From NCBI RefSeq assembly GCF_910592395.1, contig NC_088317.1, positions 7,070,001 to 7,134,000 of the forward strand: a stretch of 64,000 nt of DNA, written 5' to 3'. This stretch comes from Lineus longissimus. Taxonomy: Eukaryota; Nemertea; Pilidiophora; Heteronemertea; Lineidae. Positions within the stretch are counted from its first letter, which is position 1. Each line of letters starts with the position of its first letter. Positions 28,101-34,100 of this stretch are shown in pieces. Both the position numbers and the translations under genes were made by a program. The notes below the pieces were generated by a model, which did not search any database, was not told the DNA's origin, and saw only the letters and a program-made list of their open reading frames with translations.

Positions 28101-31100
28101 AAACATTGACAGATGCAGCAGTAACAAGTTGGTCTTACCACTACCACATCTTGTAACGTATCTGGTAGCTTTTCATCGACTAGGCCCAAGTCGTATGAAA
28201 ACCGGGACAGAACACGCCCTAGGATAATGATAAACAACTTCAAATGTACAGTGAGAATACAACTGTGGTCATTCATGCATCGCGGAAGCCCACAATATAT
28301 CATACATCCTACCAGCCAGAAGTCACTTCATATTCCCCATTCTCAATTCTCACCGAAATTCCCTTCATTCCAAGAGCTAAGTGACTAGACCATCACTAAG
28401 GGCTTGGTCAATTAACCCTTTCACCCTTTCCATTATTCAGCCACTACCAACTTTTGCTGGGCAGTGAACATCAATGCTTGCTGAACAGCAGTTACTTTTA
28501 TCTGAGCGGACAAATCATATTCGGCAAAAGGTCCAGTGCTAATGAATTAAAACTTTAGCTGTGCATGTCACTCACATGCGATGGGACATATGTGATATGA
28601 CATGACAGGTCCACCAAAGGGTTAATAATGGGGTATGAGAGCTGTGTGAACCACAACTATAACTGTCCAAAGATCAGGAATCAGTTCTTGAAACTGTGAG
28701 AATTGTGAATAAGGAGTAGATAATAACCAACTTCAGTCAGGTGATCATCCATTCAACCAAGTATAAATCAGAAATTTAATCTATAATTGTTCAACTGAAA
28801 AGAAGTTTGAGCAGGACTGCTCGACAATACTAATTGGCATTTATACAAACACACATCCTTATTCACCTTGAATACTTTCCTCTCCTACCTGACATGTTTT
28901 TATCCAAAATGTCGTCCACGATGCCTGGTCAACAACACAAATTTAATAGGTGGCAGGAGAAATATGCTTCAGTGGTTGTCTCTCATTAAAGGGATTAAAA
29001 CCTCGGCAGATCCTTATGGAGAAAAGATGTGCGAAACAAAAAATGCACTGTTACACATCAACATTGGTTATTTTCCAAGATTAGCCAACCAAAAAGGCAT
29101 TTTTTTCCCCTTCTAAATAGCCATTTCTATTCCCCTTTTGTTACCCGAAACAACAATTTTTTACCTTTTTCCTTCTGCCAACTGATATGGCATGCTACTT
29201 TTTAATAAATCTTACCCTCCCACCAATCATGAAGGTTTTTTCCTTTTAAAATCTTCCAAGGTGTTTGTCTTCAGCAAAAACACTTTTAGTCATTTTTGTT
29301 TAACCCTTTGAGCGCGATAGGCGACGAGAGACCAATTAAACTGCCCCAGCACCTCTCAGACATCGTTCATTTAGTTCCGCTCAGTATTCATAGACGGCAC
29401 TCATGAATGTTAACAGGTTACACAGCTTTTTCACAGTTTTTTTTTGCTAAAGTCGGAGTTTTTAGGGGGGTAAACATGCCAAAACTTTTACCCCAATTGG
29501 GGGCTACTAATTAGCCTCTAATTAGTGCTGATTGGATCGTAATTTGATGCTAAAAAACGGTGAAAAGCAGGATGGATACTTCGTGTACATTATACATTAG
29601 GTAAACACATGTAAAAGCTTGTTTATTGTGGTAAGTGGCTAACTTTCATTTTCATACCCCACTGGCCATGGTGGGGGCTGGGGGGTCACAGAGAGGGGTA
29701 TGGGGGGGTCAAGACCTTATCATAATTCATTTTCTTCATTTTTATCATGGTCTGGGGGTCATACTGAACATAAACCTTATGACTATTGACAGAGCACCGA
29801 TATTTATTTTGTTATGGCCCTGTGAAGTGTGGGTATAACATTTTCTGATTTTCTAAAAAAAATTCAGCGCCCAAAGGGTTAAAGTTGAGATATGTAGAAG
29901 AGGTTGAACCATTTGGTGCAGGCTCCAAATTAGGTGAGGGTGGTGACGAGAACCATGACAATTTATTTCAATGGTCTTATCAAGAGACAACAACAAGCAT
30001 TTTCTCACATTACCAGAATATTAGGAGGGTCTACCAAGTCACCAACAGATCACACACATAAAGTTTTGAGTCCGAGATCAAAATCTCCAATTTTCATATC
30101 TCACCTCCATCGCGTCAAAAAGTGTTGATGGAATAAGTTCATCAACGAGCCCAACATCTTTAGAAAATATATTGAATATTCGACCTAGAAAATACATTTT
30201 TATCCGAATTAGATAATGTGATAAGTGCATATTGGGTATAAAAGAGAATGATAAATTCAGAAACCTACCTTTATGCGAAAGACCTGCTTTTGAACCTCGT
30301 TAGTTTTATAGTAGAAATATCATCCATTAATATTTGTTATAGATGTACATAGAAAAGCGAAGAAATGCGCCACAACCTACCTTAACACTTACAATCAGGC
30401 AGAGCAGAGATGAAGAAAAGATGATGTAGCAATGCCCAATATCCCGTTGCTGACACCGCATCATAATGACGCTGTTGAACATTACATACGTGCACATCGT
30501 AGATTATCAGTTCTACTTGTACCTCTGGCTCCAAACCTAAGCATTGCCCAAAAGCCTACAGATTTTGAAAAAAATTACAATGTGGGAATCTCCCCAGCCA
30601 GTTTCTGGGCTTGGTTCCACTCAGTTTCTGACTATATGTGTCTATAGACGTTACATAGACATTCACTTTTCATGCTTCATGCTTCACTTTTTAGGGTCAT
30701 TCGTGACCTGAACCATTAACAAGGCATTTTCAATGAACCTGTTACATAGGTCTTCATTTTCTACTTATTGCTAGCATCGCGTGAGCTCATGAATGTCACA
30801 AGTGAATCGAGGAATTGACATGCTCATTCTTTGTGAAGTGAACTGCACGACAGCAAGTCAAGATTCGGAGAACGCACATGATGCATCCGATAGCGACGAA
30901 GAGTCCATCTCATCCCAGGCAGTTGATAAGGCTGACATTGACCACTTCGAATACAGTGATGATGGCAGTAACCAGCTAACTGAACCACCACTGCAGGAAA
31001 CCAGAAGCTTTTGCAAGGAAACCAAAAAGGCAAAATCTAAGAAAAGGAAGAGTATCCCTGCAGATGATGATTGCGAAACTGTAGTGATGAGGGCTCTGCA

Positions 31101-34100
31101 ACAGCGTATTGAGGAAAATAAGGAATTTCCTAGACTGAAGTTCTTTAAATTGCTAATGCCAAAGGTAGATTCCCTTTCAGAGGACCAATTCCTTGACTTT
31201 CAAATTGAAAAATCTTTTAACCAGATGCCTGTGTATGATCGATTGAACTCTCCCAGCACGCTTCGTACCAAAAATGGTCCCTACACCACACCATTCTCGG
31301 TTGCCACAAGAGCAACGTTGCCAACATTTTGTCCTCCGAAGAGTCCATAGTCATCGCGGGAAACTCCAGAGTCCATAGTCATCGCGGGAAACATCGCGGG
31401 AAACGCGGGAAAGTGACAAATGAACGAGTTGAATGTGAACCCTATGTAACACCCCAGCAAAAAGGACGGATGAATCGTGACCCGTGAAGAGTGAAAGGGC
31501 AACGCGTGAAGAGTGAAAAGTGAATCATTCGGTCCTATGTAACGTCTGCCTTGACAAACATCTTAAATGTTCCCCAAGACGTTGCCTGCAGGTGTCCCAG
31601 GTGATACCTGTCAATCGAGTGTCACGACCGACGGTCTCTCTGGTTGCTTTTTCGATCCGTTTTTTTTCACCCTTGAAAACTTTCTTAGAAGTTTTATAAT
31701 CCACCCGATATATACATGCACCACTTTCCACCAGGAATTGGCCTCAATCCTGCATATGCCACCATTATATACATGTTTTTAAGCCACCTCACACTCTCAC
31801 CTGCAGGAAATCAGATAGTGTTGAGGGCAAAAACTCGTCCATCAAGCCCATGTCTTTAGAAAAAACATTGAGTATCCGACCTAGAAAATACATTTTATAC
31901 AACTAAACTGATTCTAGGTGTTCCCCTAATCAAGATATTGACACAAAATGTCAGTGGCTTTCAGTAATACCTTGGGCCTGGTTGTTCAAACAAATTTTGT
32001 CACAAACGCTGGCATTAACTTCTAACTTGGCATTATCTCCTTCAGTTAAGCCTTTGAGACTTAACGCCAAATTAAGTCAAAGCCAGCATTAGTGACAAAA
32101 CTTGCTTTGAACAACTGGGCCTACCAAAAATACATGTAATAGTTTTGACAGAAGAGGCAGCCCAATGCGACACTGGTCAAACAAAGCCTTGTGTGATGAA
32201 TCCGGATTTCATGCCTTTTTTCGAGTTTAAGCCAGAGTTTGATTGTGTTCTGAATACAAGTGAATGCAGGAAGTACAATGTATACTACTGTACTGAACAG
32301 ATTCTAATTATATTTTAGATGGATTTTTCACCAACAGGGTTTGTCAAGGGACTGATAGAAGTTTCAAAAATCTCAAAATTTGGCGTTGACACAGTGGCCA
32401 CCAAATTTTGCTGGCAGTGAAAGGGTTATCTAATTGGTTCAGTGTTGTGCTGAACCTAAAATTGGCATGATCAGACTTGATAGATGCCATCAATAGTGAT
32501 TTACATAGTCAGCCCTGATAGAAGTTTATCTTACTTGAAATTAAATTTTTTTATGAAGAATACTCACCTATAGGATTCGTATCAAAAAAGAATACTGGCG
32601 CCCGAAGTATTTTATCAAACATGTTGTTATGCAATGTCCTTGCAGAATTCACGCAAACATTATAGATAAGTAGAGCACGAAGTATTCCGAATACGAAAAC
32701 GGCCAAAATTATCCCGGAGAATATGTAAATATATTCGTTTGTATCGACATATGGTACAGTGATGTTGGTTTGATTGTATCCGCTGAACGTGAGATTGTCA
32801 TGGAGTTGTTGCGCTGCGTGGCGCTGCTCTTCTTTTACTGCCCTGGAAGAAAACAAAGATTCGTTTTAGACCACAATCATCATTGCTTGGTTTTGTCATC
32901 ACCCACACTAGGCACACTTTGCAAGTGATGTCAGCAGGGTAAAGGATACGGCTTGGCACGCAAAATGGATATCCAAATGATGTCACTACACGGCCCACCA
33001 CATAGCTCTTGACCATTCTGGCCCCATTCTCCCCTATCGGCAAATCTGAGGAAGCCCAGTGCTTGTACCTAACCTATATTCATAAACAGGGATTGCCTGG
33101 AATTGGACTTTTCGTAAATTTCCATGCCAATCTTGACCTAAAGGAATATTACTTCAACTGGTCGTATTGTTGAATGAATATGCACCATTTTTGAAAACAC
33201 ACAAAGAGTTTTCCAAGAAGACTCCCTTTTCCACTTTGTTGAGGATTTTTCAACCAAATTTCAAATGGAGGAACTTGGGACACGCACTCAGCCCCAAGGT
33301 ATCTGACAAAGAGTGAGGGAGGCCATTAAAAATTGCTAATCTTCTGATGTAAGGATGATACCATAACGGATAGCAAAAATATGGATGAGAAAGACTGTAG
33401 GAGGTTTGATAGGCACTTTAGGATGGAAGCGAGAGTCACCAGTAACTCACCAGTATGATAACCACCAATCGCAAAGGATGTATGCGACCTGTGCCAAGAT
33501 GTTCAACACGACCAACAGGAAGAGTTTCAAGCCACTCCCACTCGCCTTGAAGTATTCTTTGTACACATGCCATTGCACCACGCCCTCAGATCGTTTCTCT
33601 TCCTTCTGGATAGGAACATGATCAGGCTGAAAAGAAATCTACACGTGAGTCGACAGAATACATATTTCCAAACTATCGGATGTAAGCAAGGATAAAGATT
33701 AGTGAGACAAAACTCTCATACCATGCATACAGTATTCGGTTACCCTTTGGTAAGGGATCATCTCCAAATTATTCGCAGGAATTCGCTTAGCCAATAGCAA
33801 CGAAAATCGTTCATATGACGTTGGGAGTCATGTGTACCCAATTTCAAGTTCATAGCTTTTAGCTCTTAAGAAACGCACCATAGTTACACTCAAATTCCCA
33901 ATTTATGCTATTTGACCTATGTGGCCATAAAAATTAGGTCAAATCAAAAACCTGTATGTATGTGATGTATCCTTGTGAGGAGAACCAACCATAAAAATTT
34001 GATGAAAACGAGTCACATGTAAGAGAGATATCACACTTTTCAGGTTTCTAATTTTGGCCCCCTGGTGGCCAAGTCAAGTATCAGATTGGACCAAAACTCA

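Follow-up and report, generated by a model that had tools for sequence, protein, structure and literature searches.

In a 64,000-nt stretch of the nemertean Lineus longissimus genome (391 Mb; contig NC_088317.1, positions 7,070,001 to 7,134,000; hereafter the window), the minus strand carries a gene that is, by homology, the ABCC4 (MRP4) transporter of this animal, and three exons of equal length, 14A, 14B and 14C, lie one after another between its constitutive exons W13 and W15. We propose that these exons form a tandemly duplicated, mutually exclusive cluster from which exactly one member is placed between W13 and W15, a reading that we consider probable (roughly 0.7). Positions given below are those of the minus-strand gene within the window.

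W13 (32568..32842, 275 nt), which encodes transmembrane helix (TM) 8 and, by homology, the coupling helix of intracellular loop 3 (ICL3), ends in phase 1, and W15 (23553..23703, 151 nt), which accepts exon 14, encodes by homology TM9 and the segment that follows; both exons are contained in P0001, the annotated NCBI protein (isoform X1). Between them lie 14A (31801..31880), the variant used in isoform X1, and the alternatives 14B (30105..30184) and 14C (28139..28218), each 80 nt long, running from phase 1 to phase 0 and flanked by AG on the acceptor side and GT on the donor side. In each case two nucleotides of the exon follow the single G at the end of W13, completing the same Gly codon, and the exon joins W15 in phase 0. 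On the minus strand, the 5' end of 14A and the 3' end of 14C are the exact limits of the span 28139-31880, and the introns of the cluster measure 687 (W13-14A), 1616 (14A-14B), 1886 (14B-14C) and 4435 nt (14C-W15) by coordinates. Among the copies, 17/27 amino acids and 54/80 nucleotides are identical between 14A and 14B, 15/27 and 39/80 between 14A and 14C, and 14/27 and 40/80 between 14B and 14C. At 14C, another GT occurs 3 nt upstream of the donor, and its use would keep the frame.

According to our model, each transcript would carry a single exon 14, any other combination forfeiting the frame and terminating early. Joining any one of 14A, 14B or 14C to its neighbours indeed yields the full frame, and all five wrong combinations (none, A+B, A+C, B+C and A+B+C) lose it, reaching a stop at residue 808-837 in models that are 1627-1707 codons long. 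These stops are far upstream of the last junction, and nonsense-mediated decay of such products would therefore be expected.

The three exons stand far outside what chance would produce. Among 142 retrieved proteins, 130 (P0001 included) contained an ungapped 27-residue exon-14 segment, the remaining 12 being dropped, and the 81 distinct peptides found in the 129 proteins other than P0001 were used to build a profile. Against this profile 14A scored 83.6, 14B 73.4 and 14C 65.3, compared with 5.2 for the runner-up among AG-GT segments in the 8864-nt intron between W13 and W15. The best score in 300 second-order Markov randomisations of the intron was 14.2, none of the 300 holding an exon comparable to 14A, 14B or 14C, which rules out a chance origin. 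The profile search of the 8864-nt intron found no exon-14 copy with the canonical NRFSKD motif. A scan for duplicates in the introns beside 19 internal exons, with 20 randomised introns for each exon, recovered 14B (score 90) and a 77-nt form of 14C (71) against a null maximum of 22; exons 6 and 14 were the only ones of the 19 with positive-scoring duplicates above their nulls. A putative duplicate of W12 exceeded its nulls (-23 compared with -28) at a negative score and was rejected as a homologue. Recent copying of exon 14 together with its introns was likewise rejected, the similarity between 14A and 14B extending over the exon together with 16 nt on its upstream side and a few nucleotides on its downstream side. 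One upstream match between 14A and 14C beat its shuffles (34 compared with 28) and was discarded by eye, without a test, as it lies beside AAAGGGTTA-type sequence resembling the ends of repeats in the W13-W15 intron.

The differences among the three exons follow codon structure and reveal constraint at the protein level. Second codon positions are identical at 25/27 (A-B), 21/27 (A-C) and 20/27 (B-C) sites, and the corresponding figures for third positions are 13/27, 7/27 and 6/27. Taken together, the randomised introns, this codon-position bias and the rule that only one exon preserves the frame back a preliminary description of this DNA, which had claimed three alternative exons in the cytoplasmic TM8-TM9 loop; its exon boundaries, shared phases (1 to 0) and common Gly codon agree with our check of splice sites and frame, and it had also read the C-terminal ends of 14A, 14B and 14C (FLQ, AME and VVV) correctly.

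Exon 14 corresponds to residues 819-845 of human ABCC4 by alignment, and by motif to residues 1070-1096 of MRP1 and 970-996 of CFTR, its first residue being the counterpart of CFTR G970. In CFTR, the ICL3 coupling helix is described as centred on N965, and the second nucleotide-binding domain (NBD2) is bound by ICL3 (accessible part of PMC9825563). Because N965 precedes G970, the coupling helix would lie in the constitutive exon W13 (...FFFDTNPI), one exon ahead of where the preliminary description had put it. Exon 14 itself would then be the return helix that leads away from the coupling helix towards TM9, the start of which is likewise placed by homology. Within this segment, the NRFSKD stretch is nearly invariant among the 130 proteins (N at position 5 in 129, R at position 6 in 128 and K at position 9 in 127), and none of the three Lineus variants keeps it intact, with R replaced by V in 14A and by I in 14B, and with 14C retaining R and carrying S for N and Y for K. 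In the ABCC paralogues of the same genome, at least those found, N and R are kept in every segment aligned across the motif bar one, the exception being a weak match, L021/L026, with GQLTKMFS. Several of these paralogues have R, Q, S or D in place of the motif K, which makes a missing K less informative by itself. The variants also differ at positions 20, 23 and 25-27, position 20 (S, S and D in 14A, 14B and 14C) being the counterpart of MRP1 E1089.

In our model, choosing among the exons 14 would swap the helix leading up from the ICL3 coupling helix in the direction of TM9. Substitutions in the NRFSKD stretch would affect the transmission of NBD2 motion to the pore, and those from position 20 onward would modify the substrate cavity at its cytoplasmic mouth. 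A second cluster in the same gene adds to this potential. W6A (45428..45677) and the alternative W6B (43449..43698) are both 250 nt long and run from phase 2 to phase 0; the alignment of W6A with ABCC4 residues 304-387 (TM5-TM6) is ungapped, W6A and W6B share 19/84 amino acids, and the W6 duplicate scored 59 against a maximum of -26 in 20 randomised introns. F324, L363, L367 and F368 are reported to be substrate-pocket residues of ABCC4 (accessible parts of PMC10202912 and PMC11948813), and W6A has Y, L, L and F at these positions where W6B has S, G, S and R. Given two pocket-helix exons and three exons 14 in one gene, up to 2 x 3 = 6 pump isoforms could arise.

In Nemertea, exons 6 and 14 may have existed in non-canonical form since an early date, judging from one annotated protein of a palaeonemertean, Tubulanus polymorphus (Lineus being a heteronemertean). 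The exon-14 peptide of this ABCC4-like protein, P0017, is GRVQARFSSDQGRIDELLPTIWYDVFE, and P0017 is the only one of the 130 proteins that, like 14C, lacks both N and K. Its exon-6 segment is nearer to W6B (40.8 bits; global score 90) than to W6A (28.9 bits; 64). P0017 is nevertheless not closest to 14C by every measure, sharing 14 of 27 exon-14 residues with 14C, 12 with 14B, 11 with 14A and 12 with human ABCC4, and scoring 64 with human ABCC4, 63 with 14B, 60 with 14C and 53 with 14A under BLOSUM62, by which it could not be assigned to the 14C class. Four amphioxus proteins (P0036, P0038, P0040 and P0060) have segments that end in VVV, as 14C does, and keep N, R and K, and this ending alone is therefore no evidence of common origin.

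How exon choice would affect the transporter can be read in more than one way. The preliminary description suggested that the exons tune coupling between the NBDs and the membrane domain and leave substrate choice unaffected. The position of exon 14 directly after the ICL3 coupling helix, and the alteration of the NRFSKD stretch in all three variants, fit that proposal; we nonetheless regard it as possible but doubtful and not supported in its exclusion of binding, since exon 14 extends towards or into TM9, which is among the helices listed as forming the ABCC4 cavity (accessible part of PMC11948813), and the variants differ at positions 20, 23 and 25-27. In MRP1, moreover, the E1089Q substitution is reported to affect drug resistance and to leave organic-anion transport unaltered (accessible part of PMC1488846), and as exon 14 includes the counterpart of E1089 and runs towards TM9, substrate choice may be tuned as well. 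A more ambitious reading, in which W6A/W6B would exchange the pocket wall (TM5-TM6), 14A/14B/14C would exchange the helix that connects the NBD2 coupling helix with the cavity, and the two choices might be coordinated, is speculative and on balance unlikely. The idea of coordination stems from the Tubulanus protein, in which an exon of the W6B type occurs alongside a non-canonical exon 14, and it is weakened because this exon 14 could not be placed in the 14C class. Were it correct, one worm gene would give rise to distinct pump types, by an arrangement that predates the divergence of Palaeonemertea from Heteronemertea and in which the canonical exon 14 was lost.

A mutually exclusive cluster also has to be weighed against the alternative that 14B and 14C are old duplicates, in use until recently or spliced at noise level, with 14A the only functional exon today. 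That 14A is the sole exon-14 variant in an annotated Lineus protein, isoform X1, and that two protein searches returned no transcript or annotated protein with 14B or 14C, both fit this alternative. A 284-residue query containing 14C retrieved 22 proteins, none from this gene and the best at 69% identity over 19% of the query, and a 54-residue query covering the 14C and 14B regions gave 19 candidates, none scoring. Speaking against it, both exons retain open frames, intact splice sites, a length of exactly 80 nt and codon-position-biased differences, and the non-canonical exon 14 of the Tubulanus protein, though of uncertain class, is missing the near-invariant N and K that 14C also lacks; we judge this alternative quite improbable. 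Other observations share with these searches, and with the failed assignment of the Tubulanus exon, the weight against our proposal of exclusive use. NG86 estimates for A-B gave a nonsynonymous divergence (dN) of 0.27 and a synonymous divergence (dS) of 1.38, which are coarse over 27 codons, and over the same 27 codons dS was undefined for A-C and B-C, as saturated synonymous sites would give. The functional effects suggested for exon choice are extrapolated from homology with human ABCC4, MRP1 and CFTR. Intronic RNA pairing adds a further such point. Competition between a docking site and selector sequences, as in insect MRP and Dscam, could enforce the exclusion, and structures of this kind are reported for MRP (accessible part of PMC6071210); in the W13-14A intron, the strongest candidate site can pair with each of the three upstream regions at -18.4 kcal/mol or better, but it was equalled by 13/100 shuffled selector sets and 10/100 shuffled docking introns. 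A first trial with 12 nulls and a coarser step had looked suggestive for a single intron (-18.4 against a null minimum of -16.7) and lost significance with 100 + 100 nulls, and three other trials (12 nulls each) gave nothing past their nulls. Exclusion through such pairing is thus unlikely.

Other routes to a single exon 14 per transcript can be compared on the same gene. With introns of 687, 1616, 1886 and 4435 nt, crowding of splice sites is unlikely to cause the exclusion. Incompatibility between U2- and U12-type sites, in the form of mixed AT-AC and GT-AG introns, was rejected with AG/GT at all three exons, minor-class GT-AG introns falling outside the scoring. The best candidate for a shared regulatory element is a 16-nt acceptor-side motif, AAAATGTATTTTCTAG, identical upstream of 14A (31881..31896) and of 14B (30185..30200), where it forms direct repeat D1, and not present at 14C; its score of 32 is just above the maximum of 30 in 100 shuffles. 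The W13-W15 intron also holds two TTAA-ended inverted-repeat elements (25946-26473 and 29299-29883, with arms of 20 nt, perfect, and 17 nt), which resemble piggyBac-type miniature transposons. A further stretch between 14A and 14B (30661-31557), with inverted repeats and a 185-codon open reading frame on the plus strand (30793-31350), is probably an inserted mobile element.

In the window the gene comprises exons W1-W21 (14762..58043), and a further upstream coding exon (L029:8016-7906) lies about 8 kb outside the window. P0001 contains the model from W1 to the stop, with 6A and 14A, letter for letter, and shows two ABC_membrane and two ABC_tran domains in Pfam. ABCC4 or MRP4 is the name of most named entries among the 120 listed of 7790 matches, and the best-matching PDB chains are those of ABCC4 (E 1e-96), ahead of CFTR (2e-52) and MRP1 (2e-47). 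P0001 has only 62 residues ahead of W1, too few for a five-helix TMD0, and so appears to lack this additional N-terminal transmembrane domain. The label 'isoform X1', together with two member sequences in the P0001 cluster, suggests that a second annotated isoform exists beside X1. The C-terminal tail encoded by the last exon (16129-14762) is long, acidic and of low complexity and contains six PKI[T/H]VTSPS repeats, a motif found in 0/141 other retrieved proteins.

The boundary of exon 14 has a close parallel in human CFTR. Exon 18 of CFTR is a single constitutive exon, and a donor position of c.2988+1 (2988+1G being a string present in published papers) makes it 80 nt long, the length of exon 14; Lineus has three copies in place of one, and the canonical NRFSKD is absent from all of them. 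In CFTR the first nucleotide of the Gly970 codon is the last of exon 17, and c.2909 is the start of exon 18 (accessible part of PMC7605713). The same Gly codon is split at the start of the Lineus exons. As both the split codon and the length match, the boundary most simply predates the Lineus duplication. In a single gene, Lineus combines an exchangeable pocket exon with an exchangeable exon 14 that shares the split Gly of the CFTR G970 exon.

The part of ABCC4 that is exchangeable differs from one animal to another. In the scallop Pecten maximus, ABCC4-like isoforms X1 and X2 (P0006 and P0007) are of equal length and differ only at residues 300-383 (21/84), a segment homologous to W6A/W6B as in Lineus, whereas their exon 14 is identical and canonical. 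Isoforms X5 and X4 of the amphioxus Branchiostoma lanceolatum (P0040 and P0060) differ only at alignment columns 204-258, by eye the W4 segment, and the exon-6 segments of several mollusc models diverge strongly.

Exclusive exons have already been reported in MRP genes of several phyla, and the Lineus gene adds another member. Mutually exclusive arrays are known at exons 4 and 8 of Drosophila MRP and in helminth, annelid and mollusc mrp-1 (Yue et al. 2017, as cited in the accessible parts of PMC6071210 and PMC7434440), and a Drosophila MRP clone has been named the '8a 4b isoform' (accessible part of PMC6185855). In the literature searched, which did not include the main paper on such arrays, we found no report of the exon-14 position as exchangeable. 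What is new here is the W6A/W6B pair together with a set of exons 14 without NRFSKD. Transmission of motion from the ATP sites to the cavity is usually studied through single point mutants, and here nature would supply three whole-segment replacements; the six combinations, set in one backbone, would separate coupling from substrate choice. The Lineus gene resembles Drosophila MRP in being an ABCC gene with tandem exons of equal length at two variable positions, and it differs from the known MRP arrays in being of the ABCC4 type, in its nemertean origin and in having no detected intronic pairing, placing a nemertean among the animals in which exclusive exons were gained in ABCC genes, a convergence already on record.

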